The notes below the pieces were generated by a model. The model searched no databases. It was given only the letters and a program-made list of their open reading frames with translations, and was not told the origin of the DNA. The translations under genes were made by a program, and so were the position numbers. From Acorus gramineus (lineage: Eukaryota; Streptophyta; Magnoliopsida; Acorales; Acoraceae): a stretch of 64,000 bases of DNA. The stretch spans positions 234,581 through 298,580 of the forward strand of contig JAUJYN010000049.1 in the NCBI GenBank assembly GCA_030737835.1, written 5' to 3'. Shown here in pieces: positions 13,704-59,590 of this stretch (its first letter is position 1; each line of letters starts with the position of its first letter).

Positions 13704-14178
13704 TGATATCAAAACCTCCACATCAAAAACCCTAGATAAAAAAAAAGTTTTTCTTTCCCTTTCCCGCTCCGATTGAGGTCTTCAATCGGAGAGGGGGAGG
13801 ACTTTTGCTCGCGAGATTTAAAAGCTCTACCTTGCACCATCACGCACATTCCCACGCCTTCGCGCTTCTCTACATACCATCATGCGCCTCACGGCGCCTT
13901 CGTGCGTCATCGTGCGCCTCCCCGAGCCACCGTGCTCCATCATCGCACCTGTCGTGCCTTGCCGACGTGCCCAGCTGTCGTGCCCTACCAGCCCAGCTAG
14001 CCCTTGCGCATTGCTGCCTACCAGCCCTGCCATTGTGCCCTGCTCGCCCCGCCATCGCGCCCTGCCAGCCCTGCCATTGTGCCCTGCTTACCCTGCCGTC
14101 GCTCCCTGCCAGCCCAGTCAGCCCTGCCGACGTGCCCTGCCAGCCCAGCCAGCCCTCGCGCATCGCTGCCTACCAGCC
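13704..14178. repeat. Copia leader plus GC-rich CCAGCCCTGCC-type minisatellite
   Basis: After the primer site there is leader-like sequence to about 13960. Then comes an irregular C-rich array of CAGCCCTGCC and CAGCCCAGC units, with CGCGCATYGCTGCCTACCAGCCCT repeated at both ends (near 14005 and 14158). Overlapping open frames on both strands are a by-product of the low-complexity sequence. A gag gene is not recognisable. Confidence 0.6.
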
Positions 14179-15737: not shown

Positions 15738-15758
15738 AGTTTTTGAGTGGTCATTATT

Positions 15759-15803
15759 AATAATAAAAATTCTGAATATTAATCATTATTACACATAAAT
15801 TAA
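15759..15803 (-). repeat. inverted U3 remnant of the Athila-like LTR
   Basis: About 37 bases around TTCTGAATATTAATCATTATT and ACACATAAATTA are the reverse complement of the U3 part of the same LTR at about 14236-14272, with only a couple of mismatches. It lies about 20 bp beyond the U5 end. This is what a palindromic LTR pair like the one at 54668-57812 would leave after losing most of its second arm. Confidence 0.6.
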
Positions 15804-19582: not shown

Positions 19583-20352
19583 TGTCACGCCCCAGGGCGG
19601 CCAACCCCGGGACGCGGCAAATGTATATATATCATATCAGAAACCTACACAGGAGGTCAAATACATATACGCTAAACCACAGATAAAAATGACAACATAG
19701 ATCAAACAAGGCTGACATAATATATACACAATATAGCGGAAGCAAAACTGAGTCTGTAACCCAAAACATATTACAGACTCGATTCACAATCATACGTCCT
19801 GTGAGAGCCAATATACACAAATACAACTGAATATATACAACACGTGCTCAGCACGGAAATACAATACATACAGCCAAGAAAAGGGATGCTGATAGCCTCT
19901 GGCACTCGCGGACGTAGCGCTGCTCCGCTACTGAAGGAATCCCTCGGAAAGCTCCAACTGCTGCTCCGGCTCCAGCTCAGGCTCAGTGGCAACTGGGGAA
20001 AAACATATGCGAGGGGTGAGCCACACGCTCAGTGAACGGCACAACCCATGCATCACAGACAATATTGACCACAACATATTAATCCAGCTATTCGTCCCGC
20101 CTCTAAGGGGCAGGAACAACATAAACATTAATCCATTCTAATCCACAATTTCCATAACCCAGATCATACCCTCACCCTTACCCCTCAACAAGGGACTCAG
20201 GATATTGGGACTTACAATCATCCATAAACAAACCAGCGGGTCGCTCATCGCCAACCCACTACACCCTCACCCTCACCCTACCACGGGTGACATAGGATTT
20301 TGGGACTGACTAGGCTGTTGGTCACCCTTAGTCCACCGGTAGTCTCTCCTCC
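19583..20352 (-). mobile_element. Gypsy LTR fragment, 3' half, inverted
   Basis: This is the U5-side half of the large Gypsy LTR described at 42756-46151, in reverse orientation. It starts with TGTCACGCCCCAGGGCGGCC, the reverse complement of the LTR 3' end. Its first 680 bp form an inverted repeat with 21050-21730. Near 20352 the sequence switches to forward-oriented LTR. Confidence 0.85.
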
Positions 20353-21730
20353 TAGACCCCTCAAACCAAGAAACCTAAAGCACGGGAAGTGTAGATCGGA
20401 TCCCGATCTACGCTCCGGTGTCTTCAAATCCAAGTTCCGGCGATCCTAGCCTCCCCGACCTCCCCTCTTTGTCCTCTGATTTGGCCCGTTTCGAAGGCCA
20501 AGGTAGATCGGGGCGTGAGAAGGCCGTTGGGAAGGGTTTCGGTGCGCGGAGAGCAACCGGACTTCCTCCCCCTCGGTAAGCTTCTTTCCCTCCTTTTTCT
20601 TGTTTAGATGATTGCTAGGGGGGGTTTTTGTGTTTGGGGGTGGTCGGCGGCAGTGGGGGTCGTCGGAGGGTGGTCGGAGGTGGTCGGCGGTCGTGGGAGG
20701 GGCGGTGGAGGCGCTCGAGCAGTGGCGGGCCCTGTTCCGGGCAGCAGGCAGCAGCGGCAGCGGCCCAGGCAGCGCGCAGGCTGGGCGCGTGCGGGGATGC
20801 GCGTGCGCGCGCAGGCGTGCGTGCGCGCGGGCGTGCGCGGGTCTGGTGCGAGGTGCTGGTCGTGCTAGGCGCACGGGACGGGCTGGCAGTGCTGGCGTGC
20901 TCGGGCTGGGGGCCTCAGGCAGCACCGGCAGCGAGCGCAGGGGGCTGGCTGGGCGTGCGCGCGTGCGTGCGCGCGAGCGTGCGCGCGGGCGTGCGCGCGG
21001 GCGTGCGCTCGGGGGAGCTGGTCGTGCGGGTGCCGTGTGCGAGGGGCTGGTGAAGTGGGTTGGCGATGAGCGACCCGCTGGTTTTGTTTATGGATGATTG
21101 TAAGTCCCAATATCCTGAGTCCCTTGTTGAGGGTAAGGGTGAGGGTATGATCTGGGTTATGGAAATTGTGGATTAGAATGGATTAATGTTTATGTTGTTC
21201 CTGCCCCTTAGAGGCGGGACGAATAGCTGGATTAATATGTTGTGGTCAATATCGTCTGTGATGCACGGGTTGTGCCGTTCACTGAGCGTGTGGCTCACCC
21301 CTCGCATATGTTTTTCCCCAGTTGCCACTGAGCCTGAGCTGGAGCCGGAGCAGCAGTTGGAGCTTTCCGAGGGATTCCTTCAGTAGCGGAGCAGCGCTAC
21401 GTCCGCGAGTGCCAGAGGCTATCAGCATCCCTTTTCTTGGCTGTATGTATTGTATTTCCGTGCTGAGCACGTGTTGTATATATTCAGTTGTATTGGTGTA
21501 TATTGGCTCTCACAGGACGTATGATTGTGTATCGAGTCTGTAATATGTTTTGGGTTACAGACTCAGTTTTAGCTTCCGCTATATTGTGTATATATTATGT
21601 CAGCCTTGTTTGATCTATGTTGTCATTTTTATCTGTGGTTTAGAGTATATATATTTGACCTCCTGTGTAGGTTTCTGATATGATATATACACCTGCCGCG
21701 TCCCAGGGTTGGCCGCCCTGGGGCGTGACA
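20353..21730 (+). mobile_element. Gypsy LTR fragment, internally deleted
   Basis: Forward-oriented LTR sequence from the leader (GTAGATCGGATCCCGATCTAC), through the GTAAGC donor-like site at about 20576 and the GC-rich block (20620-21045), then directly to the 3' end GGGGCGTGACA at 21730. The acceptor region and mid-LTR are missing, so the join near 21046 is a deletion or a recombination. It forms a palindrome with 19583-20265 about a centre near 20657. Confidence 0.8.
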
Positions 21731-23161
21731 AGTTTGGGACGCGCTACATGCCTTTGAGCGTGTACCGTCCTCCCCTGGGGCACATAGTTGGTATTAACTG
21801 TTTTTATTATAATCCATGTAAGCATGATGTGTGTGTAGAATGCATGCCACCCTAGACTTGTATGTTAGGGACTTGCACCCTTAGGATTTGTGCATGAGCC
21901 GTGCATCCTGTCACCCCGCTATCATGCTAGGAAAGCCCTGACCTATGCATGCGTCCTATTAGTTTGATTTATTTAATTAAATGCAAGCTTTAACATTGTT
22001 AGCATGCTTTGGGGAATATGAGGGGGCCTTGCGAGGTTAACATTGAGACCCGGGTTAGGGTACTCCGTGTTCCTTGTTTGGTTGGCGGGATGTCCTACAT
22101 CGGGACCTCAGGTTGCCCTCCCAAGGTCTCTTTTCCTCATTTTATCTTATTTATTTCCCCGCATCTTGGTTATGCGCGCTGGAGGAATTCTGAAAGAATT
22201 CAAGACATTAGAGTTGTAGAGATGTGCTGTCAGCGGATCCGAGTGGATCATATGCGATGGATAGGCTGTTCTGTTCCCTCCGTTGGATACGTGTAGAGAC
22301 TACCCCGGCGTTGGAAAGGTTGTCCCGTGCAGGGGCTTCCATCAGTAGGCGCCTCCTGATTTGGTAGAAGGACTGCGCCGAACGTGGGAGTGGCCAAACG
22401 ACCTACGGAGTGGGGAGAGATTATCGGTGGACCGAGGGTGACCAATAGCCTAGTCAGTCCCAAGAGCCTATGTCACCTATTGAGGGGTGAGGGTGAGGGT
22501 ATGGTGGGCCGGCGATGCGGTGACCCACTGGATTGTGTAAGGATGATTATCAACCTATTAAGTCCCAACATCCTTGGTCACCTATTGAGGGTGAGGGTGA
22601 GGGTGAGGGTATGGCGGTTCGGCGATGTGACGAACCCCCGGATTTGTGATATTTATGCCACTTTGAGGCTAGTGATTTGATTAAATGTGGTTAATATGAA
22701 CTGTATGCATGGGTTGTGCTATTCACTGAGCGTGTGGCTCACCCCTCGCATAAAATCTTTTCAGTGATTACCGAGGAGGATTTGAAGGAGGAGCTTCCCG
22801 AGCGACTACACCAGTAGCGGAGTAGCGCCACGTCCCTCGAGTTTTGAGGCCATCAGCATCCTTCTCTTTGTTGTATGTATATATTTCTGTGCTTGGGCAC
22901 CTAGTTTGGATTACGTATGGATTGTATTTGTATGTGTATATGGACATGTTGGCTCTCACAGGACATATGATTATGTATCGAGTCTGTAGTATATTTTGAT
23001 TACAGATTCAGTCTTTTTTTTAGCTTCCGCATTTGGTGTATAGCCCTGCTTTATCTATGTTGTCATATTAGCTGTTGTGTGAGTATGTTATTGAACTCCT
23101 GTTTACTGATATCATATATACACTTGCCGCGTCCCGGGGACGGCCGCCCTGGGGCGTGACA
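21731..23161 (+). mobile_element. Gypsy LTR fragment, 3' half, direct
   Basis: This picks up the LTR just after the position equivalent to CCCAG/TTTGGG in the copy at 60829-63939 and runs to the LTR 3' end GGGGCGTGACA. It contains two GGGTGAGGGTGAGGG repeat units near 22490 and 22590. The LINE resumes at 23162. No target duplication links 19578-19582 with 23162-23166, which fits a rearranged rather than simple insertion. Confidence 0.8.
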
Positions 23162-38135: not shown

Positions 38136-38303
38136 AAGAAAAGTTTGAACAGAAATCAAGTTACTATGAGATTCATTACTATTATACTATAAATAAGGAT
38201 AAAGTGTCCTCTAGTATCGTATCACTGTAACTTTTCATAATCAAGTTATAAATTATAAATGCATTATCTTTTCTTGAGAAAAAAATATGATAAAAATGAT
38301 AAT

Positions 38304-38622
38304 TGTTGTAAACTAAGTAAAATATAACTACATAAACAAAATACACAAGCAAATAGAGAAGTAGAGAGAGGTATTTATTCTTCTTTTGTTGGTTGATGGA
38401 ATACAAGAGAAAACCCCTCTATTTATAGGGTGCATAGAGGAATCCCAAAAGTGGAGAGTTACAAGTCTATAGAGGTGAGGGGGAGATAGTGGGGCAATAA
38501 TAGGAGTGTTATGGAATAGAAGAGTGGGGGAGGTTATGGAGATGAATGAGGGGGTTATGGAGTTGAAGAGTGGGGGAGGTTATGGGTTAGAGAAGTGGTG
38601 GTTATTCACCATATTCATAACA
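38304..38622 (-). repeat. Copia 3' LTR
   Basis: 319 bp, the direct repeat of 47852-48169. On the minus strand it begins TGTTATGAATA and ends TTACAACA. It contains AACTATATTTTAC-type AT-rich sequence and a TATAAATAG box. The adjoining CCAAGGGGGAG (minus strand, 38623-38633) is the polypurine tract that primes plus-strand synthesis. Confidence 0.92.
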
Positions 38623-38633
38623 CTCCCCCTTGG

Positions 38634-38873
38634 ATGACCACCACGCTAAGAAAATTGCCTCATTAAAACCTTGCTTGGAAAACCCAATGGGAAAAAACCA
38701 AAGCGAAGGAAAAAGAGTACAATGTAACTTAATCGTATAATAATGTATGCGTTTGACACTGCCTCATTAAAACCTTGCCAGGAAAACCCAATGGGACAAA
38801 ACCTAGGCAAAGGAAAAAGAGTACAGTTCGCAAAATGTCATAAAAAATTACTCTCCCTCATAAGTACAAGATT
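38634..38873 (-). repeat. Copia 3' untranslated region with tandem motif
   Basis: Two copies of a motif of about 65 bp, GCCTCATTAAAACCTTGC through AAGGAAAAAGAGTACA, lie at about 38659-38723 and 38761-38825 on the + strand. This repeated motif between pol and the PPT is familiar from plant Copia elements of this type. Its role is not established. Confidence 0.7.
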
Positions 38874-41800
38874 TCAAGAATTTTGGTCGCAAACTCGTCG
38901 CATCCCGATTTCATACACCAGCTTCTTGAATGTTGATGTCGACAAAGCTTTAGTAAACAAATCTGCAAGATTATCCTTTGACTGAATTTGTTGAACATCA
39001 ATTTCATGTCTCTGCTGGAGCTCATGAGTGTAAAAGAATTTTGAAGAAATATGCTTCGTTCTATCACCCTTGATATATCCTCCATTGATTTGAGCAATAC
39101 ATGCTGCATTGTCTTCATATATAGTTGTTGGAACATCTGTAATGAGAGATAGTCCGCATGCAGTACGAATATGATGAACCAAAGACCTTATCCACACGCA
39201 TTCCCGGCTTGCTTCGTGGAGTGCAAGAATCTCAGAGTGGTTAGAAGACGTGGTGACCAAAGTCTGTTTCGTAGATCGCCAAGAGATTGCTGTGCCACCG
39301 CAAGTGAATACATAGCCTGTTTGTGAGCGAGCCTTGTGAGGATCTGAAAGATATCCTGAATCTGCATAACTCTTTAGTTGTGCACCATTATTGGAATCCT
39401 TTGCATAGAATAGACCCATGTCTGACATTCCACGAAGATAACGAAAAATGTGCTTCACACCATTCCAATGCCTTCGAGTTGGTGCAGAGCTAAATCTGGC
39501 CAATAAATTAACTGAAAATGCAATGTCAGGTCTAGTGCATTGGGCCAAATATAATAAGGCACAAATTGCACATAGATATGGTACTTCAGGACGAAGAATA
39601 TTTTCAATATCTTCTTTTGGACGAAAAGGATCCTTCTTTGGGTCAAGTAACCTTACTACCATTGGAGTACTTAATGGATGACATTTGTCCATATTAAAAC
39701 ACTTAAGGATTTTTTCAACATATGTTGTTTGATGAACAAGTATCCCATTTGAACTTTGCTCAATCTGCAAGCCGAGACAGTATCTTGTTTTTCCAAGATC
39801 TTTCATTTCAAACTCCTTTTTCAGATATTCGGAAGCTTTTTCGAGCTCTTCAGGAGTTCCAATTAGATTAATATCATCAACATATACTGCAATAATGGTA
39901 AATCCGAGTTCCGTTTTCTTAATAAATACACAGGGGCATATTGGATCATTGACATATCCTTCTTTTATTAAGTACTCACTAAGACGGTTATACCACATTC
40001 GTCCAGATTGCTTTAATCCATATAAGGATCATCTTAGCTTGATTGAGTACATGTTTTGTGGTTTTGCTTTAGGCAATTTTAGTCCTTCAGGAACTTTCAT
40101 ATAAATGTCGGTATCTAATTTTCCATATAAATATGCAGTAACCACATCCATTAGCTGCATGTCAAGTCCTTCTGAGACTACAAGACTAATTAAATACCGA
40201 AATGTGATTGTGTCCATCACAGGAGAATATGTCTCTTCAAAATCTATCCCAGGTCTCTGCAGGAAACCCTGTGCCACAAGACGAGCTTTGTATCTAACAA
40301 TCTCGTTTCTTTCATTTCGTTTTCTCGCAAACACCCATTTACATCCTACTGGTTTAACACCTTCAGGGGTTAGGACTACTGGTCCAAATACTTGGTGTTT
40401 TGCAAGTGAATCCAATTCTGTTTGAATAGCAGCTTTCCATTGTGGCCAACAATTTTTTCGTCTGCATTCATCCACTGAACGTGGTTCTAAATCATTATCT
40501 GAAATGATTTCTGTAGCTACTGCAAATGAGAATATATCATCAACAAGCACTTGCTTTCGATCCCACAATATTTGTGAATTTGCATAATTTATGGAAATTT
40601 CTTCATTTCCATGTACTTGTTCTTCATGCACGGGCGTCACTTCAGGGACGTCAGTCTCTTCGGGGACTTGTGTCACTTCAAGGGCTTCTTCCTCTGTAGG
40701 AGTTATTATTGTGGGTCTTTCAAGTGTTTCATACTCTTCTAGAGAATTATTCTTCATTGTTTTTCTCCTTCGGGGAGCTGAATCTTTTGAGCCTATAGGT
40801 CTTCCACGCTTCAGGCGTGTTTTTGTTGATTCATTAGCCGGCATATTAACAGTTTTTCCTATTGGAACATTAATTCGAGCTGGAGTATTAGCAGCTGGAA
40901 TATGTGATTTCATCACTTTTGCTGCATCATTGAATGCATCTGGCAATTGATGCGCAATTCTTTGAAGATGGGTGATTCTTTGCACTTCAGTTTCACATTG
41001 ATTAGTGCGAGGATCAAGATGAGACAAAGATGGAGTTTGCCATGTAAGTTCACGTCGTTCTTCTGGCGACGGATTTTCTCCCCCTAATGACGGGAATATT
41101 GTCTCATCAAAATGACAATCCGCAAATCGAGCGGTAAAAACATCCCCTGTCAATGGTTCAAGATATCTTATAATAGAAGGAGAATCAAAGCCTACATAAA
41201 TTCCCAATCGACGTTGAGGGCCCATTTTAGTTCGTTGTGTAGGGGCAATAGGAACTTGTACAGCACAACCAAAAATTCGAAGATGTGAAATATTTGGTTG
41301 ATGACCCAGTACGAGCTGTAAAGGGGAATATTGATGATAAGCAGTTGGCCGAAGGCGAACTAATGCTGCTGCATGCAATATAGCGTGACCCCAAGCTGAA
41401 ACGGGTAATTTTGTCCTCAAAAGCATAGGACGTGCAATTAGCTGAAGATGCTTAATAAATGATTCAGCTAATCCATTTTGGGTGTGCACATGAGCAACAG
41501 GGTGTTCAACATCGATGCCATGCGACATACAATAGTCGTTAAAAGTTTTCGATGTGAATTCACCAGCTCCATCAAGGCGTATTGACTTTATAGGATAATC
41601 CGAAAAATGAGACTGTAATCGGATTATCTGAGCAAGTAGTCTTGCAAATGCAGCATTCCGAGTGGATAATAGACAAACATGCGACCATCTAGCAGATGCG
41701 TCTATCAATACCATGAAATACTTGAATGGTCCACATGGGGGGTGGATTGGGCCACATATATCCCCTTGGATTCTTTGCAAAAATGTTGGTGACTCAACAT

Positions 41801-42412
41801 TGACTTTTGTAGGGGATGGTCTAACTATCAATTTTCCTTGTGAGCACGAAGTGCATTGATAGTGATTAGGTAAAAGAATCTTCTGGTTCTTTAACGAATG
41901 CCCAAATGAATTATCAATTATTCGACGCATCATTGTAGACCCTGGATGCCCGAGACGATCATGCCAAAGTGTAAAAATATCTGAATCATAGAACTTCTGG
42001 TTCGTTACAGCATATGATTCGATTGTTTTTATGGTTGTATAATACAACCCAGATGAGAGAGCATGAAGTTTCTCTAATATATGCTTTTGGCCTGAAACAA
42101 TTGAAGTAATACATAAATACTCCATATTGTTTTCACTTATAGTCTCAATATGATATCCATTAATACGAATATCCTTAAAACTTAGCAGATTTCTTCTGGA
42201 TCTTGCTGAATATAATGCATCATTAATACAAAATTTTGTACCTCCTGGTAATATTATATTTGCTCTTCCAGAGCCTTCAATTAATTTTGTAGTACCAGAG
42301 ATGGTATTAACATTTGCATTAATTAATGTCAACGTTGAAAATATTTTCTATTTCGTAGGATCGTATGCGTTGTAGCGCTGTCTGCCAGACAGATGTCACC
42401 AACCATAGCCAT
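38874..42412 (-). pseudogene. Copia pol: protease, integrase, reverse transcriptase, RNase H
   Basis: Starts at the ATG at 42412, with protease motif DICLADSATTH (DSA catalytic triplet). A one-base loss in a T-run near 42340 then shifts the frame. The 767-codon stretch holds the HHCC zinc finger (HDRLGHPG, CTSCSQGK), integrase acidic residues (GDICGP, LDGAGEF, NGLAESF) and RT (CKWVFARKRN, ARLVAQGF, DVVTAYLYG). One TGA at 40029-40031, probably a mutated CGA arginine codon, precedes the last 374+ codons with YVDD, RNase H (YADSGYL) and the usual NLADLFTKAL end. Both pol parts are in the same frame. Confidence 0.9.
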
Positions 42413-43020
42413 TCTTGTAAAAAGAAAAACGAAATAAATAAGATAAATATAGAAAACATAAAATTGCATTTTATTGAAATAAAGCAAAGTACATAAAAAA
42501 GGGAGGAAAATTACATGAAATAAATGCTAAAAAGGGAAATATTAGTTGATGTGGACATTTCCATCATCAATCATATAACCGATGTTGCCATCAGAATTAG
42601 CAAAGAAATCAGATACATTCAAATGAGTAATATCTGATGGGCCAACATGGTTTACAGGGTCAACAAAATTTACTTCAACATTCTTTCCCTTGTCTGTGAT
42701 TGATGCCTGATAAAGGTCAACTAAATGTCTTGGCGTATGACAGGTACGTGACCAGTGTTATATATGTGTCACTTTTAACCTGCTGGTAACCGTTGGAGCG
42801 TTCTTGTAGTTTTTCGTTTTTTTTCGGTTTTCGATCGGAACCGCTAAAATTTTGGACTGTTAGCTATTGTCCTGAGTTAGAGGACTCCGATTGGAAATCT
42901 AACTGCATATTAGGTGTCCTGGTGCCATTTTAGGCCTCTCACGAAAATTTCATCGAATTCCGGTAACGTTTCTGAAATTTCACAGTTCCGGGGCGTATCC
43001 GGGTTTTAAGTGAGTTGACT

Positions 43021-43344
43021 TTATATAAGAGGGGTGAGAAAAGTCATGCACTATTCATCATCTTCTTCCCTTAGCTCTCTCTCTCCCCTTCTCCATTTTT
43101 CTTGGGTTTGAGCTCCTTGGAGTGCCCAAAGCTTAAAACCCAAAGCATAGAAAGGCTAGATCGGGTCCCGATCTACGCCCCGGTGTTCTCGGATTTGAAT
43201 TCCGAGAAGATTGGCCCCTCCATCCCCCCTCTTTTATTCCCTGATTTGGGCCATTTCGAAGGCCGAGAGAGATCCGGGCGTTGGAAGCCTTTTGGGAGAG
43301 GTTTCGGTGCGCGGAGAGCAACCGGACTTCCCTTCCTCCCCTTG
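43021..43344 (+). promoter_or_regulatory. Gypsy LTR promoter and leader
   Basis: TTATATAAG at 43021-43029 is followed about 50 bp later by a CT-rich start-site-like region (TTAGCTCTCTCTCTCCCC). The copies at 51102-54387 and 60829-63939 have TATAAATT and TATAAGTG at equivalent places. The leader contains a small palindrome, GATCGGGTCCCGATC, kept in all copies. Confidence 0.6.
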
Positions 43345-44458
43345 GTAAGCCTTTTTTCCTCTCTTTTCTTGTATAGATGTATGTTAGGAGGTTGGTTTGA
43401 GGTTGGGAGGCGGTCAGTGGCCGTGGGTGGCCGTCGGAGGGCTGTGGGTGGTGGTCGGAGGCCTTGGGGTGGCCGGTGGTAGAGGGTGGTTGCTCGGGCA
43501 GGGAGATAGGCAGTCCGGGCAGGTTGGGTGGCTGTCCCGGGAGGGTTGGCAGCGGGCGCAGCAGGCTGGGGCACCAGGTGGCCGGGCGCGCAAGTGCGTG
43601 CGCGCGGCGTGCGCTCGGGTGGTGCTGTAGGCGTGCTGGGCGCGCTGGGTAGGGCTAGCTCGGGTAGGATGGCTGCGGGCGGTGTGAGCAAGGCAGGCCG
43701 GCTGGGCAGGCCATGCTCGAGCAGCTAGCAGGGGGCGCTCGGGCATCAGGTGGCCAGTACCCGGGTGGGCAGGCGAGCAGTGCTCGGGCCACTCGGCGAT
43801 GCGCGCAGGCAGGCAGCGCGGGCAGGCTGGCAGGCGCGCTGGGCGCGTGCCGCCAGGCGCGCTGGGCGCGTGTTGCCCAGGCGTGCGCGTGGGCGCTGGG
43901 TGAGGGTCCCGGGTGCTGGGCGCTGAGCGTCGGGCGCTGGGTCGCGGATACCGGGTGCTGAGCGCTGGGCGTTGGGGCGCTGGGCACCGCAGAGGGCATG
44001 CGCGCGGGGCGCTAGGCAGAGGCACAGGCGTGCGCGCGGGTAGAGGCTGGTGGTGCGCGCGGAGTGCGCGCGGGACGGAGCTGGTGGTGCGCGCGGGGTG
44101 AGGCGCTGGGCGCGCGGGGCGTGCGGTGTGCTCGCGTGGTGCGCGCGGGGCGTGCGGGGTGCCCGCGGGCTGCTGCGGCGGGGCGCAATGGGCGCGTGGT
44201 GCACCCGGGTGGCTCGGCAGGCTGTCCGGGCGTGCGGGCTGAGTTCGGCAGGGCGCCTTGGCGCGCGGGCCAAGACTCGGCTGTGCGCCCGAGGCGGGTG
44301 GCCGTGCGTGCGGCTGCCCGGTGGGTTCGGGAGTGAGTCGGGATGCTCGGATACGCGTGCGTACGGGCCGTATGTACGTTTGTCCGAGTGTTGAGTATTT
44401 TAGAGTATTTTTGATGTATTTATGTATTTTACTCACCGTATAAATGCCTGTCTTGCAG
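43345..44458 (+). other. candidate leader intron in the Gypsy LTR
   Basis: A donor-like G/GTAAGC at 43345 and an acceptor CCTGTCTTGCAG ending at 44458 bound the GC-rich block (1114 bp). The same signals occur on the minus strand in the LTR at 51102-54387 (53798 to 52862, 937 bp) and the LTR at 60829-63939 (63177 to 62302, 876 bp), although the sequence between them differs greatly. Conserved ends around a variable interior are what an intron would show. Splicing is not demonstrated. Confidence 0.5.
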
Positions 44459-47400
44459 ATCTTGACGGACGGTCGCGCGACGACCCGGATTCCGGTGAGT
44501 GGGACAATCCAACCCAGTAGTGAGGCGTTATACGCATTTGGGCGTATACCGACCTCTCCTGGGGCACCATGGATTTATATTAACCTGTTGTAATGTGTAT
44601 TCTATGCGAGCATGATTTAAATGTAGAATGCATGCTACCCTAGACTTTGCATGTTAGGGACTTGCACCCTTAGGATATGTGTATGAGCCATGCATCATGT
44701 CCCCCAGTTCTCATGCTAGGAAGCCTTGGCCTATGCATGTGTCCTACTAGTTTATTTATTAAATTAAATGCTAGTATATGTTTAATTGCATGCCTTAGGT
44801 AGGGGCCTTGCGAGGTCAACACTGAGACCCGGGTTAGGGTACTCCGTGTTCCTTGTTTGGTTGTCGGGATGTCCTGTATCGGGACCTCATGCTGCCCTCC
44901 CAAGGTTCTTGTCCCAATAATATTATATCTCTAGTTGATAATTATTGATTTATCCCTTGTGTGATTATTAGCAGCTTAGTGAATATTATAGGGGAGGGGC
45001 CTTGCGAGGACAGCGGTGAGACCCGGGCTAGGGTACTCCGTGTTCCTTGTTTGGTTGTCGGGGTGTCCTATCGGGAACTCACGCTGCCCTCCCAAGTTTC
45101 TTTCCCCCAATGATATTCCACCCTTGCTAATTATTGTGTATGTTCCCCGCATCTTGGTTATGCGCCCTGGAGGAATTCTGAAGAATTCATGACATTAGAG
45201 TCGTTGAGATGTGTAGTCGGCGGATCCGAGTGGATCATATGCGTATGGATAGGCTGTTTTGTCCCCTTCGTTGGATCCGGTAGAGGCTGCCCCAACGTTA
45301 GAAATGCCATCCCTTCCAAGGGTTCCCATCAGTAGGCGCCTCCTGATTTTGGTTTCGGACTGTGCTGAAGTTGTGGGTGAAAGCCAAGCGGCCTACGGAG
45401 TGGAGGAGAGACTATCGGTGGACCAAGGGTGACCAACAGCCTAGTCAGTCCCAAAATCCTATGTCACCCGTTGTAGGGTGAGGGTGTAGTGGGTTGGCGA
45501 TGAGCGACCCACTGGAGTTGTGATTGGATGATTATCAGTCCCAAAATCCTATGTCACCCATTGAAGGGTGAGGGTGAGGGTGTAGTGGGTTGGCGATTGA
45601 GCGACCCACTGGTTTGACTATTTGTTACCATTTTGTGGTTGTTAATAAGAGATTGTGGGTTATAAAGATTGAATTGTGGTCAATATTGTCTGTGATGCAT
45701 GGGTTGTGCTGTTCACTGAGCGTGTGGCTCACCCCTCGCATATGTTTTCCCCAGTTGTCACTGAGCCGGAGCCGGAGGAGCAGTTGGAGCCGTCCGAGGG
45801 ATTCCTTCAGTAGCGGAGCAGCGCTACGTCCTGCGAGTGCCAGAGGCTATCAGCATCCCTTCTTGGCTGTATGTATTTTATTTCCGTGCTTGGCACGCGT
45901 TTGTATATATTCAGTTATATTTGTGTATATTGGCTCTCACAGGACAGATGATTGAGTATCGAGTCTGTAGTATGTTTATTTACAGATTCAGTCTTTTGCT
46001 TCCGCATTTGGTGTATATATCATGTCAGCCCTTTGTTGTCTGTGCGTCATTCTGGTTGCTTGTGTATGATATATTATTGACCTCCTGTGTAGTTTCTGAT
46101 ATTTTATATACACTTGCCGCGTCCCGGGGACGGCCGCCCTGGGGCGTGACAGACCAGTGTCCTTTACCACCGCATCGATAGCATGCAGTCTCATTCTTTT
46201 TTGAAGGTTTGTTCATCAAACCTTTTCCTTTGTTGTGCTGCCCTTCATTCCACTTCTGGTGGTTAAAGTTGCTATCTTTATGAACCTTGTAATTTCGATT
46301 GTCGTTTCGGCCACGCCCTCGTCCTCGGCCACGTCCACGTCCACGTCCACGCCCACGGGTAGACATCGTGGATACATTTGCTTCAGGCATTAATGCATTT
46401 GCTTCAGGCAGTGATGCAGAACCAGTTGGACGTGATGTATGATTTTTCAATAAAAGTTCGTTATTTTGCTCAGCAACAAGGAGGCATGATATTAATGCCG
46501 AGTATTTTTCAAATCTCCGCTCTCGATATTGCTGCTGCAGGAGCAAATTCGAGGCATGAAAAGTAGAATATGTTTTTTCTAACATATCCTCTTTTGTCAC
46601 CTTTTCACCACACAACTTAAGTTGTGAACTAATTTTAAAAAGGGCAGAATTATAATCAGCAACAGATTTGAAATCTTGCAATCGCAAGTGCATCCAATCA
46701 TACCGAGCTTTGGGAAGGATGACAGTCTTTTGGTGATCGTATCGATCTTTCAAGCTCTCTCAAAGGGTAAGAGGATCTTTCACCGTGAGGTACTCGCTTT
46801 TGAGATCCTCATGAATGTGGTGGTGAAGGAAAATCATTGCTTTTGCGCTGTCCTGCAGGGACTCTTGATTTCCTTGCTTTATTGTGTTGCCAAGGTTCAT
46901 GGCATCAAGGTGAATTTCAGCATCGAGTATCCACGAGAGATAGTTGTTGCCTGAAATATCAAGTGCGGTGAATTCGAGTTTTGTAAGATTCGACATGGTA
47001 AATATCTCTATAAGAAAAATGAAGTAATGTCACTACATGTATTGAGAATATAAATAAAAATATAAACAATAAAACTTGAAGGTTCAGCAACAAGTATTTT
47101 TAATACCGATATATTTGAATAAACCATAATAATTTTCAAAATCATGGATTTATTGAAAAACCCATACAAAAGGGACTACCTTTATTTTTTTAAAAAAATG
47201 TGCACTATTCACTAAAATATGTTTACTTTTAATAGAAAAAAAATGTATTCATAAAGACTATATATCTCAACTCATCAAAATCTAGAAAGTGATCTATCAA
47301 TAAGATTATTAAATAAAATTAAGTATACCCATCCGGTTAAGAATGCACTACAATGACATTGTGAGAACTATCTTTTCTAGTCTAGAATAAAAAAAAGGAA

Positions 47401-47532
47401 TTTGGGCATGTATGCTATTTTGGAAATCTGAAGCCAAACATTAAGAAAGGTTGTGTCAATTTGATAAGTAAGCAGAAAGTCATTCCAAGCATTTTCTAAA
47501 AACTAGCATGTGTACAAAACATGATACTTGTA

Positions 47533-47539
<7 letters not shown>

Positions 47540-47590
<51 letters not shown>
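47540..47590. repeat. (TA)n microsatellite
   Basis: About 25 TA dinucleotides inside the Copia leader region, preceded by a short GT run. Likely to vary in length. Confidence 0.95.
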
Positions 47591-47596
<6 letters not shown>

Positions 47597-47837
47597 CCAT
47601 AAGAAATGCATAAAGAAAATACCTTCTTAAAACAAATCTATAAAAGAATATAACGATGCATAAGTATATTTAATTATGTAGCATAGAGTAAGAAAATTCA
47701 TTTTTCTTTATCAGAAAGAAAAAATCATAAAATTGCCTATCATGTTGTATACAAAATATAAGATAAAATCATGATGATTTGAGCATCATGAACCAACCAA
47801 AATACAAACCTCTTTAGCGAATTAGACAAGAGCGTCG

Positions 47838-47851
47838 TCGTGCTGATAACG
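47838..47851 (-). other. Copia primer-binding site
   Basis: On the minus strand the bases directly after the 5' LTR end (TTACAACA) read CGTTATCAGCACGA, the primer-site sequence usual for this type of Copia element. It marks the 5' side of the element's interior. Confidence 0.75.
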
Positions 47852-48169
47852 TGTTGTAAACTAAGTAAAATATAACTACATAAACAACATACACAAGCAA
47901 ATAGAGAAGTAGAGAGAGATATTTATTCTTCTTTTGTTGGTTGATGGAATACAAGAGAAAACCCCTCTATTTATAGGGTGCATAGAGGAATCCCAAAGGT
48001 TGGGAGTTACAAGTCTATAGAGGTGAGGGGGAGATAGTGGGGCAATAATAGAAGTGTTATGGAATAGAAGAGTGGGGGAGGTTATGGAGATGAATGAGGG
48101 GGTTATGGAGTTGAAGAGTGGGGGAGGTTATGGGTTAGAGAAGTGGTGTTATCCACCGTATTCATAACA
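47852..48169 (-). repeat. Copia 5' LTR
   Basis: 318 bp, nearly identical to 38304-38622 apart from a few small differences near its start (minus strand). It carries a TATAAATAG box about 100 bp from its end. The small divergence between the LTRs points to a fairly recent insertion. Confidence 0.92.
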
Positions 48170-51101: not shown

Positions 51102-54100
51102 TGTCACGCCCCGGGCGTCCCCGAGACGCGGCAAGTGTATATATAATATCAGAATCTACACAGGAGGTCAATAATATATCATACACAAACAACCAGAATG
51201 ACACTCAGACAATAAAAGCAGGGCTGACATGATATATACACCAAATGCGGATAACAATTGACTGAATCTGTAATCAAAACACACTACAGACTCCATACAT
51301 AATCACATGTCCTGTGAGAGCCAATATACATACAAAGACATCCAAATACAACACAAACGCGTGCCCAAGCACGGAAAATAACACATACTGGCACAAGGGA
51401 TGCTGATAGCCTCTGCAACTCGCGGGGCGTGGCGCTACTCCGCTACTGATGAAGTCCCTCGGGGAGCTCCTCCTCCAGATCCGACTCAGACGACACTGTA
51501 GAAAAATATTATGCGAGGGGTGAGCCACACGCTCAGTGAACGGCACAACCCATGCATCACAGACAATATTTACCACAATTCCATTATTTATCCAGCCTCT
51601 AAGACATAACAACATGATCCAGTGATTCGTACTTCGCCGAACCACCACACCCTCACCCTCACCCATCAATGGGTGACATAGGTTATTGGGACTGATAATA
51701 ATCCATTCACAAATCCAGTAGGTCGCTCATCGCCAACCCACTACACCCTCACCCTCACCCTACCACGGGTGACATAGGATTTTGGGACTGACTACACATA
51801 ACCAGCGGGTCGCTTCCGCCAACCCGCTACACCCTCACCCTCACCCTTCAATGGGTGACACAGGATATTGGGACTAACTGCACCAAAAACCAACGGGTCG
51901 CTTCCGCCAACCCGCTACACCCTCACCCTCACCCTTCAATGGGTGACACAGGATTTTGGGATTTACAAGCATCCAATCACAACTCCAGTGGGTCGTTCAT
52001 CGCCAACCCACTACACCCTCACCCTCACCCTTCAATGGGTGACACAGGATTTTGGGACTGACTAGGCTGTTGGTCACCCTTGGTCCACCGATAGTCTCTC
52101 CTCCACTCCGTAGGCCGCCTGGTCTACTCCCACATTCAGCACAGTCCGTCCAAAATCAGGAGGTGCCTACTAATGGGAGCCCTCTGTCAGGGAGGCCCTG
52201 TCTAACGCTGGGGTAGTCTCTACCGGATCCAACGAAGGGAACAGAACAGCCTAACCATCGCATATGATCCACTTGGATCCGCAGACGGCACATTATAACA
52301 ACACTAATGTTCTGAATTCCTCAGAACCCACCAGGGCGCATAACTACGATGCGGGGAACATGCATAAGGTTATAACAAGGTGGAATATCGTTGGGGAAAG
52401 AAACTCGGGAGGGCAGCGTGAGTTCCCGTTATAGGACACCCCGACAACCAAACAAGGAACACGGTGTACCCTAACCCGGGTCTCACCGCTGTCCTCGCAA
52501 GGCTCCTCCCCTATAATATTCACTATAACATGCATTGTAAACAAATACTAGTATTTAATCAAATAAATAAACTAGTAGGGCACATGCATCGGCCGGGCTT
52601 CCTAACATGGAACCAGGGGACATGCTGCATGGCTCAAACACATATCCTAAGGGTGCAAGTCCCTAACATGCAAAGTCTAGGGTAACATGCATTCTACAGT
52701 TTAATCATGCTCGCATGATATACATATCATTGCAGGTTAATATTTATCCATGACGCCCCAGGAGAGGTCGGTATACGCCCAAATGCGTATGACCCCTCTC
52801 TACTGGGTTGGATTGTCCCACTCACCGGAACTCGGGTCGACGCGTGACCGTCCGTCGAGATCTGCAAGACAGGGTATTACTTGGTAAGTATAAATCCACA
52901 AATATTATTAAATACACAAATAAATACCCAAAACCCACAACAAACACCTAACACTCGGGCAAACGTGCACGCGACCCGCACGCACGTTAGCCCGAGCACT
53001 TCGGCAACCACCCGCACAGCCGGCAATCACCCGCACGGCCACCCGACCGCCCGGGCGCACCGCCGCGCCTCGGCCCGCGCGCCCCGCGCACCGCCGAGCT
53101 TCCCGGGGCACCCCGCACGCCCCCACGCGCAGCGCCCCGCCCCGCGCGCACCTCCGCCACCTTGCCGCACCTCGCGCGCACCTCGCACGCACCTAGCCTG
53201 CCCCGCTGCGCCTCGCGCACACCTCGCACGCCTTGCCGCACCTCGCGCGCACCTCGCACGCACCTCGCCTCACCTCGCGCGCACCTCGCACGCACCTTGC
53301 ATGCCCCGCTGCGCCTCGCGCACACCTCGCACGCCTTGCCGCACCTCGCGCACGCTCCTCCGCTGCATCAGCCACATGAACAGCCCCGCGCACAGCCGTC
53401 CGAACAGCCCCGCGCACAGACCCGCGCGCACCCAGCGCCCAGCACGCCCGCGCGCCTGCTGCCTGAGGCCCCCCAGCCCGAGCTCGCGCGCCCAGCACGA
53501 CCAGCAGCTCGCACCAGACCCGCGCACACTCGCGCGCACGCCGCGCGCACGCACGCCCGCGCGCGCACGCGCCTGCCCGCGCGCACCCGACCTGCGCGCC
53601 GCCTGGGCTGCTGCTGCTGCTGCGGTTTGGCCCGGACGACCTGCCGAGCGCCTCCAACCACCCCTCCCACTGCCCCGACCACCTCCAACCGCCTCCGACC
53701 ACCTTCCGACGACCCCCACCGCCTCCAACCACCTCCCAAACACATAACCTTCCCCTAGCAATCATCTAGACAAGAAATAAGAGGGAAAGGAGGCTTACCG
53801 AGGGGAGGAGGAGGTGTCCGGTGGATCTCCACGCGCCGAAACCCTTCCCACAAGCCTTCTCACGACCCGATCTATCACGGCCCTCGGAATGGGCCAAATC
53901 AGAGGACGAAAAGGGGAGGTCGGGGAGGCTAAAGTCGTCGGAATCGGGTTTTGAAGACACCGGAGTGTAGATCGGGACCCGATCTACACTTCCCGTGCTT
54001 TAAGTTTTCGATTTCGAGGGGTGTAAGGGGCTTGAACGGAAGAAAAACGGAGAGGGGAGAGAGAGATCTCGACGAGGAAGACGATGAACAGTGCTCCTCG

Positions 54101-54387
54101 AAATTAGCTCACCCCAATTTATAGTGCGCGACTTAAAAACCCGGATACGCCCCGGAACTGTGAAATTTTTACAAACGATGCCAGAATTCGATGAAATTTT
54201 CGTGGGAGGCCAGAAATGGCACCAGGACACCAAATATGCAGTTAGATTTTCAATCGGAGTCCTCTAACTCAGGACGATAGCTAACAGTCCAAAAATAAGC
54301 GGTTCCGATCGAAAACCCTAAAAATTTTTAAAACTGCCAGGGCGCTCTAACGGTTACCAACAGGTTAAAAGTGACACATATATAACA
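51102..54387 (-). mobile_element. solo Gypsy LTR (3286 bp) with 5-bp target duplication
   Basis: Reverse orientation: starts TGTCACGCCCC and ends CATATATAACA. The perfect direct repeat GAATC flanks it at 51097-51101 and 54388-54392, which settles that the family inserts as an LTR element. It has the same internal order as 42756-46151 but five G-rich repeat units (about 51643-52060). The GC-rich block at 52930-53740 has diverged strongly from the other copies. Confidence 0.92.
51643..52060. repeat. tandem array of G-quadruplex-type units in the LTR
   Basis: Five units of about 86-98 bp, each with ACCCTCACCCTCACCC on the + strand (GGGTGAGGGTGAGGGTG on the LTR sense strand). Each also carries a CAACCC(A/G)CTACAC block and GGGTGACAYAGG. 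The G-tracts are spaced to allow a four-stack quadruplex. The LTRs at 42756-46151, 60829-63939 and 21731-23161 have two units each. Confidence 0.75.
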
Positions 54388-54667
54388 GAATCTCCCTCAT
54401 TGAATCCATTTTTATTTTGCTTCTTTGCCTTTGACAAAAGTAGGAACATTCCCTTGAACAACACACCTCAAATCTCTTCTCGATCTAATTAATCTTGTAA
54501 AGAGTTGAGTGCATCTCTATTTTTTAGCTCGAGCTTCTTCATCAATTTGGTTGATATAATGTTTGCATTGTTACCATAGTCGATGATAAAATCAAAATCA
54601 CTTTTATTGATAACAATTTACTTCTTGAACATGTGCCTTTGTAAGTGTTCTTCCTTCATTGGGATCA
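54388..54667 (-). pseudogene. possible Gypsy protease fragment
   Basis: On the minus strand a short frame reads DFIIDYGNNANIISTKLMKKLEL, which resembles the (D-S-G)-x-x-N-x-I-S-x-x-x-x-x-KL pattern of retroelement aspartic proteases, with the DSG altered. Stops follow. The assignment is weak. The palindromic LTR insert at 54668 ends this piece. Confidence 0.3.
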
Positions 54668-57600
54668 TGATAAGCATATTAATTATACATTAAAACCCCT
54701 TAATCTAAGTTTCTATATCTTTATTTTATGTATAATAATAACTAATATTAAGAATTCATGTGTTATTGCAGGTAATTGACTTAAATGATGATTATCAATA
54801 CAAGATATGCTACAAATCAGTTAAAGATGTGAAGGAGAATCAAGAGTTTCTAGAAGATCCTTATGGAAAAGATTTGGTTAAGATTGAATAAAAATCAATC
54901 TAATCAAATATATTCTTCAAAATCCCGTCCCACTGTTTTGATCATAACTTTTGCCTCAAGTATCTGATTTATTCTCATGATATGGCGTTGGAAAGATAAT
55001 TTCAAGATCTACAAATCACTATTTCATGAAGATTTCGTAATTCCATCTTATTACGGGTCACAAAGCCATCTGAAGATTCTGCAGAAAATCAATGACGGGA
55101 ATTAAATCTAAACTTCATATGAGGAAGGTTGAGGCCAATCTTAACTACCAAATCTTAACCATCCATTATATTGTAAATAAATGGTTGAGATTCAAGAGCT
55201 GGAGACTATAAAAGGAGCACATGTGAATAGAAAAGGGGGGGGCACAAAGACAATCAAAAGGAGAAGAAGAATTCAAGAGTTTTGGTTTGTTTTTTTGTTT
55301 TTCTTTTCATCTCATATATTTTGATTCTTGTATTCTATTAGATCTGAATTTTAATATTAATTTTGTGTTTTTATTTTCAAGAATTTTTTAATAATATGAT
55401 GTCTTTTATTTTTCTTTTCTTTTATTTGATCATGTTTTCTAGTAGCTAAATCTTCAACTAGGGTTGAAGATGAAACCATGCAATGTTAGTTTAGGATTTT
55501 GTATTTAAATTTGAATTCTCCAAATCTCTCCTTCAATTCTCTTTTGAAACCTTTTGTGTGAATTTCTTATTACCTTCTTCAAAAATCTCTTGTATTTGAT
55601 TTGATAAAATATGCTTTGATTAAGTTCTATGATATTTTATGCTCTTCTTAACATGTTGAATATTGACTTGGTAGATTTTATAAAAGGAAGGGAGATAGAT
55701 CATTCTATTGTATTTTCATAAATCAAGGTTTTTAATTGTAGAATCATCTTCAAGGATCTCTTATTTAGGGTTTGATAGGGTATGCTTGGTTAACTCTTTG
55801 ATATCTTATTCTCTTCCTAATATGTGAATATTGAGATGATTGTTTTGATTTCAAATATGAAATAATTAATATGATTTTAAATATTTATTTTCCGATTGGT
55901 ATTTGATTAACGTCAATATTGATTGAGTTATATGGTGGAGTTTCATATTTGAATATAATCCCTAAATTGGTATTGCATGGTGGATTCTAAAACCCTAGTT
56001 ATCTTTTCATATTAATATTCTCTTTTTAATAATAATAATAAATAAAAAAACTTCATCAATCTTTCTTTCTAGTTCGATTAGTTAAATTGATTAATAATCT
56101 GATTTAAACAATTCTCTGTGGGTTCGACCCGTATTTGCTAGATCTATACTTCTGTAACGATCCGTGCACTTGCGGTAATTAATAACAACTTAAATATTCA
56201 ATCAAGTTTTTGGCGCCGTTGCCTCCGAAAGATAAATCAATATCAAATTTAATTTGAAACAATTCCCCGGCAACGGCGCCAAAAACTTGATTGAATATTT
56301 AAGTTGTTATTAATTACCGCAAGTGCACGGATCGTTACAGAAGTATAGATCTAGCAAATACGGGTCGAACCCACAGAGAATTGTTTAAATCAGATTATTA
56401 ATCAATTTAACTAATCGAACTAGAAAGAAAGATTGATGAAGTTTTTTATTTATTTATTATTATTATTAAAAAGAGAATATTAATATGAAAAGATAACTAG
56501 GGTTTTAGAATCCACCATGCAATACCAATTTAGGGATTATATTCAAATATGAAACTCCACCATATAACTCAATCAATATTGACGTTAATCAAATACCAAT
56601 CGGAAAATAAATATTTAAAATCATATTAATTATTTCATAAAATCAGATTTGAAATCAAAACAATCATCTCAATATTCACATATTAGGAAGAGAATAAGAT
56701 ATCAAATAGTTAACCAAGCATACCCTATCAAACCCTAAATAAGAGATCCTTGAAGATGATTCTACAATTAAAAACCTTGATTTATGAAAATCCAATAGAA
56801 TGATCTATCTCCCTTCCCTTTATAAAATCTACCAACTCAATATTCAACATGTTAAGAAGAGCATAAAATATCATAGAACTTAATCAAAGCATATTTTATC
56901 AAATCAAATACAAGAGATTTTTGAAGAAGGTAATAAGAAATTCACACAAAAGGTTTCAAAAGAGAATTGAAGGAGAGATTGATAAGCAATAAAGCAAACA
57001 ATATGGAGAATTCAAATCTAAATATAAAATCCTAAACTAACATTGCATGGTTTCATCTTCAACCCTAGTTGAAGATTTAGCTACTAGAAAACATGATCAA
57101 ATAAAAGAAAAGAAAAATAAAAGACATCATATTATTAAAAAATTCTTGAAAATAAAAACACAAAATTAATATTAAAATTCAGATCTAATAGAATACAAGA
57201 ATCAAAATATATGAGATGAAAAGAAAAACAAAGCAAAACTCTTGAATTCTTCTTCTCCTTTTGATTGTCTTTGTGCCTCCTCCTTTCTATTCACATGTGC
57301 TCCTTTTATAGTCTCCAGCTCTTGAATCTCAACCATTTATTTGCAATATAATGGATGGTTAAGATTTGGTAGTTAAGATTGGCCTCAACCTTCCTCATAT
57401 GAAGTTTAGATTTAATTCCCGTCATTGATTTTCTGTAGAATCTTCAGATGGCTTTTTGACCCGTAATAAGATGGAATTACGAAATCTTCATGAAATAGTG
57501 ATTTGTAGATCTTGAAATTATCTTTCCAACGCCATATCATGAGAATAAATCAGATACTTGAGGCAAAAGTTATGATCAAAACAGTGGGACGGGATTTTGA

Positions 57601-57812
57601 AGAATATATTTGATTAGATTGATTTTTATTCAATCTTAACCAAATCTTTTTCCATAAGGATCTTCTAGAAACTCTTGATTCTCCTTCACATCTTTAGTCA
57701 ATTACCTGCAATAACACACATGAATTCTTAATATTAGTTATTATTATACATAAAATAAGGATATAGAAACTTAGATTAAGGGGTTTTAATGTATAATTAA
57801 TATGCTTATCAG
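54668..57812. mobile_element. palindromic Athila-like LTR pair inserted as one unit
   Basis: Left arm 54668-56204 is a forward LTR (starts TGATAAGC, ends CAATCA). Right arm 56288-57812 is the same LTR in reverse. Between them lie two inward-facing primer sites, TGGCGCCGTTGCC on the left and the longer TGGCGCCGTTGCCGGGGA complement on the right, plus about 35 bp of leader. Both outer ends are therefore U3 termini. The direct repeat GATCA flanks the whole unit at 54663-54667 and 57813-57817. The arms are nearly identical, differing mainly by a few indels of up to about 40 bp. No gag or pol lies inside. Confidence 0.92.
56211..56281. other. two opposed tRNA-Asp-type primer-binding sites
   Basis: TGGCGCCGTTGCC at 56211-56223 and the reverse complement of TGGCGCCGTTGCCGGGGA ending at 56281 face each other. 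This primer site is typical of Athila-lineage Gypsy elements. The left copy stops after 13 bases and the right one continues into leader sequence, so the junction of the palindrome is within or next to the left primer site. Confidence 0.85.
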
Positions 57813-59590
57813 ATCATCACCAATAAATTGAAAAAAAAAAAAAATCTTTCATCTCCTCTGATCATCCCTTGTGATCATTGGAGAAAGTAACGTCATCTAT
57901 GTCTCATATTAGGGGAGTATCTGCATATTCTACTGGTGGAGGAGAACCTTGTGATTAGAGAGTGATTATGTGGGCGCAGTAGTGGTAGAAATCTTTTCTA
58001 CCATGTTCTTGCCCCTCGTCGCTATGTTCGCTATGTCCTCGCCTTTTTCTTCTCTTTTTTTTTTTTTTTTTTGTTGTGTATGCTCTATTTCCTACTCACC
58101 TCCCATTCTGACATTTTCAATTTTTATTCTATTATTTTTTATTTGAAATGAAGATACCTATAATTCTCTCAAAAACATCATAAAAAACACCAGTTTTTTT
58201 TATTTTTTATAAGGTGGCGATTATATCACATGACCTATGTTATAATTGAGTTACATTTTAAAATTTAAATTTTATCTCAATCTCTTGAAATATAACTTGA
58301 AATTTGAAATTTAATTTACTCTTATCTATTAAGATTTTTATGAATTTTAAAAATTTAAAATTTCAATCTTATATGTTGAGATTGACATAAAGTTCAAAAT
58401 AATCTTCTTCATTAATTTTGAGATATAATTAGATATTTAAATTATGTTTCAAACTTATTTAATTTTATTTTAATTTTAAATATAATCTAAACAGATGCAC
58501 ATGTGGATATAAGGTAATTAAAAAAAAAGAAGAGAAATCACGTTTCAAAAATAAGAGTGATTTATAAATCATATCTCCTATATATTGATATATAAAAAAA
58601 CATATAATTTTGGGCATGAGATCTTCTTGACAAATTCAGGTCCTTCGAAAAACTAAAAATAAAAAAATTAGTCCGCGCTGATTAGGTTAAATGTTATTTT
58701 TTATAAATATTCAAGGGGAATTATTTGTGTTAATATTAAAAAGAATTGAGGTTTCTTGTGCAATTTGCGCAAAAATTAACATTTAACTTCAACCTATCTA
58801 ATTAATTGGGGGCAATTTATTCTAGACACGTGAAATATTGACACAACCAAATGGGTCCGAGTTCGAATTCCTGTTTCCATTGGGAATAGGAACAAAGGTT
58901 TTTACCCAATCACCTTTGTTCACGTGGATTATTTAACGGAGGCGGACGAAGTCAATAAAGATCATTAACGAGGCTCTACAACAGCTATACTAAAATTGCA
59001 TCAAAGTCATGATAATAAAAAAAATCACAAATCAACCCCTTCGTAGACGAGACTTGTGCCGCCCCACTTAAAAATCACAAATTCCATACATAAAATCCAC
59101 ATAGATCACGTTAAAAAAGTAAACCTTCCATTATAGACCTCATGTAATAAAACAATTGCACCTTGGTCCCTTCAATTGAATTACTCTGAAGCCCTAATAT
59201 CAAATAACAGAAGGGGAAAAGGTGGGTTTTGATTTGACGAGAGGGGAAGAAAAGAGGATCATACAAGACGGTGGGCAAGGTTTTCATTGAAAATTTATTC
59301 AGCTATTTGGGACTTCAAAGATTCATATGAAGGTATCGATTGCTTGTAATCGGTTTAAGTTTTGATTATTATGTATGTTTGTTTTTATAATTTTTTTTTT
59401 ATAAACAAGTTTGTGTTTATTTTTGCATGAAGGACATAACCTAGATAATTTATATTGGGAACAAAAGTATTTTAAAGGAAAGATGAAATAGACAAATTTT
59501 TTTTTATAAAGTTGAGATCTACTATATATTTTGCAATAGTTGTATTTTTTCTAAGTGTTTACTAGATAACAATTGAATTTGACAGATTCG
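57813..59590. other. AT-rich intergenic DNA
   Basis: No gene is recognised. A T-run near 58055-58074 and several AT-rich blocks are present. 59160-59340 is purine-rich and could be the transcribed leader of the FAR1-like pseudogene that follows, with a possible intron to about 59585. Confidence 0.45.

Follow-up and report, generated by a model that had tools for sequence, protein, structure and literature searches.

The stretch of Acorus gramineus DNA analyzed here (64,000 nucleotides of contig JAUJYN010000049.1, hereafter the window) contains, at positions 54663-57816, a head-to-head palindrome of two long terminal repeats (LTRs) of a retrotransposon, the existence of which is confirmed. Most probably, the unit arose when incomplete reverse-transcription products of a tRNA-Asp-primed Ty3/gypsy-type element were joined into an inverted dimer, which was then integrated. 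This reading is drawn from the anatomy of the unit, its target-site duplication, the recurrence of such units with different centers in the same genome, a tRNA copy at one of these centers, and the origin of the 40 nt at the window center and of part of a filler from the element's own sequence.

Structure of the Palindrome

The unit is ~3.15 kb long and is made up of two ~1.53-kb LTRs in inverted orientation, with the U3 ends pointing outward and the primer-binding sites (PBSs) inward (Table 1). It is not a normal LTR insertion, as the LTRs are inverted and U3 stands at both borders, nor a solo LTR, as two inverted LTRs lie between the GATCA copies. An earlier note on this DNA had described facing LTRs with U3 at both borders and inward primer sites, flanked by a perfect 5-bp GATCA duplication. 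The layout of the LTRs and PBSs and the comparison with the family bear out this description, as do the two copies of the duplication at 54663-54667 and 57812-57816; the end of the unit, placed at 57817 in that note, was one base too far.

At the center, a 13-nt PBS of the left arm is joined to the complete PBS and 40 nt of leader of the other arm, and the resulting sequence is unique in the genome at exact match. The 40 nt are ordinary leader: among the 18 single-LTR loci L004-L021, nine have the same PBS and leader after the LTR, identical to the window center at 45 of 45 bases. Each LTR contains an inward-facing TATA-box-like sequence (55207-55215 and 57302-57310), a putative promoter motif. 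A transcript starting from either of them would cross the center into the other arm and would thus be self-complementary.

The Source Family

The source genome was searched over 398.6 Mb in 137 contigs. A 738-nt LTR piece used as the query gave 469 first-look candidates, 40 of which were scored, and the family counts given here refer to these 40. About 4 kb were examined at each of the 39 other matches, the pairs on contigs C11 and C6 being treated as one stretch each.

The U3-outward orientation was tested against the family. Five of the seven LTR-only loci consist of TGATAAGC...CA with a perfect 5-bp duplication, a combination that the other two (L019 and L026) do not have. The elements in which both LTRs were read are flanked by duplications of ATAAC (C4) and GTTGT (C56), and in the candidate pairs C57, C1, and C43 the match of the duplication is unreadable, the second LTR being truncated or running into PBS-like sequence. 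The polypurine-rich GGTTTGGGGGTGTT stands before seven of the examined LTRs, which are therefore 3' LTRs or derivatives of them. Two LTRs, L025 and L033, have the polypurine tract before them but PBS-like or leader sequence after them, as in tandem or recombinant elements.

Pfam analysis of the open reading frames (ORFs) of one complete copy (L065) returned RVT_1, RT_RNaseH, and rve, in that order. The succession of reverse transcriptase (RT), RNase H, and integrase is what we take to be a mark of Ty3/gypsy elements, and a TG...CA LTR, a PBS after the LTR, a polypurine tract before the 3' LTR, and a 5-bp duplication, all further features of that class, are present as well. The tRNA-Asp primer, the LTR length, and the RT sequence resemble those of the Athila lineage, to which the element may belong. 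DIRS-like elements use a tyrosine recombinase and are not known to make a target-site duplication; here, 5-bp duplications are present and the family encodes an rve integrase, a tyrosine recombinase not having been searched for.

Recurrence of U3-U3 Units

Eight of the 40 scored LTR matches, at five loci, belong to units bordered by U3 on both sides. They represent four independent events, namely three whole palindromes (the window, L002 on C11, and L003 on C6) and one composite unit on C63. The 5-bp duplications are perfect in three of the four (GATCA, TGAAC, and CGCAT), while the fourth matches in 4 of 5 positions. Because the centers differ, the four units are separate events and not copies of one palindrome. 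The earlier proposal that two cDNA ends bearing U5 and PBS were joined in inverted orientation before integration is strengthened by the two additional palindromes and the composite, which have different centers and duplications of their own.

A genome-wide search for facing U5 ends found the pattern at three places with gaps of 62-122 nt, which are the window, L002, and L003. None was found at gaps of 1-61 or 124-184 nt or in the reversed-pattern controls, in a search that required unmutated motifs and would miss mutated ends.

An amplifying palindromic (foldback-like) family was considered and ruled out, the three whole palindromes having three different centers; only L022 shares a center, with L002. 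This locus was rejected as a fifth event: its right arm ends after ~70 nt, and it has 297 nt of left flank in common with L002, at 97.6%. L022 is a truncated segmental duplicate of L002.

Junctions at the Centers

In the C11 unit, the LTR runs to ...AATC, its last A being lost at the joint, and is followed by tRNA-Asp through CCA and then by the other LTR in inverted orientation. ARAGORN recognizes the insert as tRNA-Asp(gtc), 75 nt ending in CCA. Of these, 72 nt are certain and 2 more (TC) are common to the LTR end, so that the copy extends over 72-74 of the 75 nt. The tRNA genes in this genome (L051 and L052) have no encoded CCA, which leaves reverse-transcribed primer as the sole possible origin of the copy.

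The C6 center is composed of a PBS of 13-14 nt (one base changed), a filler of ~49 nt, and a 21-nt tRNA complement belonging to the right arm. Two 13-mers of the filler are exact matches to the element's own end, taken as the last 310 nt of LTR, spacer, and PBS, and a match of that length was obtained in 3 of 2000 shuffles. The 21-nt complement stops just before what we take to be U55 of the tRNA. This position is one of the minor plus-strand stops described for HIV-1 (PMC13191261).

The C63 joint connects an LTR ending at AGTTTT, where minus-strand synthesis starts, to U3 nt 134 of an inverted element, with a possible overlap of 2 nt. The inverted element is cut in its 3' LTR; its 3' internal end (1811 nt) is 96% like C4, and its 5' LTR-leader end was also read. 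Both ends of the unit were thus read, with the middle (~1520800-1524400) unread, and the length fits a whole element.

Divergence of the Arms

The window arms were aligned over 1522 columns, with 18 mismatches and 12 gaps in all, of which the center holds 5 and 4, respectively. Outside the center the arms are set apart by 13 substitutions and by 8 indel events that add up to 87 nt, the largest being 41 and 23 nt. The earlier statement that the arms differ mainly by indels is thus correct in terms of bases (87 nt vs 13) but not in terms of events (8 vs 13). The arms are 0.9% apart, compared to 0.5-3.7% among the 22 compared LTRs, and the unit can accordingly be called recent, as had been claimed, only in the sense that it is about as young as the other compared copies. 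Indels were not used as proof of youth; the divergence of the arms resembles that of other copies.

Private and segregating sites were compared in 33 of 41 LTRs (the 40 matches plus the right arm of the window), L009, L021, L022, L023, L024, L027, L035, and L036 being excluded as truncated, split, or duplicate. The pair L032/L033 was excluded from both control groups. At sites segregating among other copies, the arms of the four units differ at 4, 7, 9, and 8 positions, while the mean for 521 other LTR pairs is 15.0, with values of at most 4, 7, and 9 in 0.6, 4.4, and 12.7% of these pairs, respectively. Two 5'/3' LTR pairs gave 3 and 9. These values suggest that the two arms of a unit tend to share a parent or to have close relatives as parents, which would be expected if they were made in one particle or cell. 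Private substitutions are not clearly unequal between the arms of the other three units (3 vs 5, 6 vs 13, and 21 vs 10; p 0.73, 0.17, and 0.07), while in the window the split is nominally unequal at 9 vs 1, nine of the ten being in the left arm (p 0.021).

Proposed Mechanism and Alternatives

According to PMC13191261, synthesis of plus-strand strong-stop DNA begins at U3 and, in the standard scheme, halts at the methylated A58 once 18 nt of the tRNA have been copied. On an unmodified tRNA, according to the same source, the copying reaches the tRNA 5' end, and the full-length products are unfit for the second transfer. The outer end of each arm is the normal U3 terminus, which would correspond to the plus-strand 5' end set by polypurine-tract priming. 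The inner end would be a plus-strand 3' end located within the PBS, the tRNA copy, or the start of the leader. The inner 3' ends of two arms would be joined in inverted orientation ahead of integration, either by the reverse transcriptase switching or snapping back onto a plus strand and copying it to its U3 5' end, or by microhomology-type joining of the two ends. Integrase would finally insert the dimer through its two U3 ends, producing the usual 5-bp duplication. One likely source would be plus strands in which the whole tRNA had been copied and which were blocked from the second strand transfer.

The inner ends observed here (the U5 end minus one base, AGTTTT, 13 nt, 21 nt, and a nearly full tRNA) are those to be expected of a range of plus-strand 3' ends. 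The joining of two such ends gives two U3 termini at once, which would explain why trimming of the borders need not be assumed for any unit. The nearly full tRNA copy on one or more partners at other loci suggests a plus-strand strong-stop origin.

Several observations weigh against the dimer interpretation. The window joint has no microhomology, and the 40 nt of leader on its right arm imply a partner that was past the second transfer or a broken longer cDNA, in either case no plain strong-stop DNA. The 9-to-1 split of private substitutions is unexpected for arms of equal age that were identical at birth, and just two of the four arm pairs fall below the 5% level of other pairs. The C11 duplication is imperfect (ATAGT/GTAGT). 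Finally, facing exact tRNA-Asp PBSs 1-61 nt apart occur solely in the window, and facing exact PBSs of the tRNA-iMet type nowhere in the genome; as these searches gave nothing beyond the window, they do not support a habit extending across other LTR families.

A variant of the same explanation is that both arms come from one strand, a single plus-strand DNA having snapped back and copied its own LTR. The C11 center fits such a course, as the terminal bases of a tRNA tail could there have paired with the U5 end of the same LTR, and so does the likeness of the arms. A simple snap-back would, however, give a closed hairpin with one U3 end, and an extra copying step would be needed before a two-ended integration. 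The segregating differences between arms are nonzero, although the one-element control pairs also give 3 and 9, and the C63 unit requires a second LTR template. We regard the variant as less likely than not.

A later union of LTRs that had inserted separately, whether in two normal events or as one element plus one solo LTR, by inversion, deletion, or ectopic recombination might be envisaged, given that family LTRs are numerous (469 first-look candidates) and that rearranged copies such as the truncated duplicate L022 occur. Such a history is made very improbable by the 5-bp duplications, which match at the two U3 borders in three units and nearly do so in the fourth, by the tRNA copy with CCA between the C11 LTRs, which is found in no integrated normal element, and by arms that are more alike than most other pairs. 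Autointegration, in which the element's own end attacks its own cDNA through integrase, yields inverted segments, and the C63 unit indeed joins a U5 end to the interior of a U3. However, an integrase joint should begin at the processed CA end, and C63 keeps the unprocessed AGTTTT, the C11 joint is without the last A of the LTR, and the window and C6 joints lie in PBS, leader, or filler. None of the four joints starts exactly at ...AATCA, which makes this route more improbable still. The explanation to which we assign the lowest likelihood of all is an assembly or sequencing artifact, for instance a collapse at 56240 or a chimeric read with a palindromic structure. Palindromes are a known class of artifact, but the arms outside the center differ by the 13 substitutions and 8 indels described above, the outer flanks differ and bear the duplication, and three more units with other joints are present on other contigs. 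Misassembly is unlikely because the units recur with four different junctions.

With the inverted dimer as the preferred explanation, a broader scenario can be put forward, although we consider it doubtful. Plus strands that reached a dead end by copying the full tRNA might be salvaged on a regular basis in this genome, each through attachment in inverted orientation to a second plus strand. The products would be a distinct class of integrase-inserted U3-U3 dimers free of internal sequence, and each of these, owing to its inward promoters, could be a ready source of hairpin RNA by which the entire family might be silenced.

Other tRNA Copies and Features of the Window

The tRNA-Asp 3' sequence with CCA has 12 matches in the genome at up to 2 mismatches (Table 1). 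L063 looks as if strong-stop DNA had been captured without concerted integration. L057-L060 represent a single chimera that has apparently been multiplied; its four copies are ~97% alike over the greater part of the compared stretch. A corresponding tRNA-iMet search gave 10 matches, six of them with CCA, five of which were read. As two of the loci (L069 and L070) carry long tRNA-iMet copies, copying past the usual stop is not confined to one family; the dimers themselves are shown for the family of the palindrome alone.

The inverted U3 scrap next to the older LTR copy in the window scores 67, compared to best scores of 36 in 300 shuffles and 39 in 219 other window segments. The region could be what is left of another such unit after decay, which is uncertain, as the scrap reaches neither a U3 end nor a duplication.

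A second inverted pair in the window (19583-21730 and 21731-23161) has arms that are 97.8% alike over 686 nt and lies inside a region resembling a long interspersed nuclear element (LINE). It belongs to another LTR family, that of L069/L070, with the U5 end GGGGCGTGACA, and no matching duplication was found at the borders read. An LTR of the GGGGCGTGACA family at 51102-54387, ~276 bp left of the palindrome, lies between two GAATC copies; a related copy with CTGGTC flanks is located inside a copia-like element (42.75-46.15 kb), and another begins at 60829. The minus-strand element at 38297-48169, with ~327-nt LTRs (96.6% alike) and long ORFs, is presumably copia-like.

Table 1. Features of the window palindrome, the other U3-U3 units, and the tRNA copies
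Feature	Location	Strand	Remark
Target-site duplication GATCA, left copy	54663-54667	.	5 bp, the family's usual size
Left LTR, TGATAAGC...ATTCAATCA	54668-56204	+	U3 end outward
TATA-box-like TATAAAAGG in left LTR	55207-55215	+	sequence motif, facing inward
AGTTTT spacer, LTR end to PBS	56205-56210	+	
Left PBS	56211-56223	+	first 13 nt of tRNA-Asp complement, then cut
Normal leader, 40 nt, part of right arm	56224-56263	-	joint 56223/56224
Right PBS	56264-56281	-	complete 18 nt, inverted
Right-arm spacer	56282-56287	-	
Right LTR, inverted	56288-57811	-	41-nt deletion; U3 end outward
TATA-box-like motif in right LTR	57302-57310	-	facing inward
Target-site duplication GATCA, right copy	57812-57816	.	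perfect match to left copy
Older copy of same LTR (to ~15739), then AGTTTTTG, then inverted scrap of its own U3 (15759-15813)	14178-15813	+	LTR 81-84% identical
L002 palindrome	C11:11372500-11376700		flanks ATAGT/GTAGT, 4/5 identical
L003 palindrome	C6:291800-296000		flanks TGAAC/TGAAC, perfect
Composite unit	C63:1517059-1528105		both outer borders U3; CGCAT, perfect
L002, L022			tRNA-Asp copy within U3-U3 unit and its duplicate
L061			LTR + tRNA-Asp nt 40-75, joined to other DNA
L062			older LTR + complete tRNA-Asp (from nt 1), no duplication
L063	C7:666400-672500		single LTR + tRNA-Asp from nt 6, flanked by 11-13-bp repeat AGGGAGGTCCATG, not 5 bp
L057-L060	C8, C70, C84, C90		344-nt U5 end + tRNA-Asp pieces, both orientations, inside another retrotransposon
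L064			tRNA-Asp match beside another sequence
L051, L052			ordinary tRNA genes
L069, L070	C6:25750-26200, C58:439800-440250		47-50-nt tRNA-iMet copies with CCA at U5 end of other LTR family

Relation to Known Systems

Searches of open-access papers aimed at inverted or palindromic LTR insertions or tRNA-bearing joints yielded no equivalent. Insertions of this kind would keep a record of short-lived reverse-transcription intermediates, including the stop points on the tRNA (13 nt, 21 nt, and nearly full) and the mode of joining, so that plant assemblies could be used to read a step known chiefly from work on HIV-1, yeast, and fly systems. They indicate that an LTR insertion need not be a full element or a solo LTR, and two U3 ends appear sufficient for concerted integration. 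LTR finders that require direct repeats would be expected to miss inverted dimers, and any transcription of the units from promoters of their own would produce long hairpin RNAs.

Two-LTR circles and other abnormal joints of retroviral or retrotransposon cDNA are similar to the Acorus units in that unintegrated LTR ends are joined, sometimes with primer-site or tRNA bases. There, however, a directly oriented joint of U5 to U3 closes a circle, whereas the Acorus units have an inverted joint of PBS or tRNA ends and are integrated, with U3 at either end. The inverted dimers of transfer DNA (T-DNA) in plants are likewise incoming DNAs joined in inverted orientation before integration, with filler, but unlike the Acorus units they are not known to involve an integrase or a fixed-size duplication. 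Over-extension of plus-strand strong-stop DNA beyond A58, as far as U55 or the tRNA 5' end, fits the tRNA lengths at C6 and C11. The products described for HIV-1 in vitro and in cells stop or fail (PMC13191261), while in this plant such ends have become fixed in the genome as parts of integrated dimers. Alternative end joining is reported to act in flies at the PBS ends of the plus and minus strands in second-strand transfer (Yang et al. 2023, as cited in PMC12786077). The outcome given there is normal transfer and one-LTR circles, of which the inverted LTR dimer would be a misdirected counterpart. The HIV-1 proviruses with asymmetric LTRs, as presented in PMC9278108, are also integrated, have a 3' LTR cut in U3, and are explained by misaligned or switched reverse transcription; their LTRs stay direct, whereas the C63 unit adds an inverted LTR.

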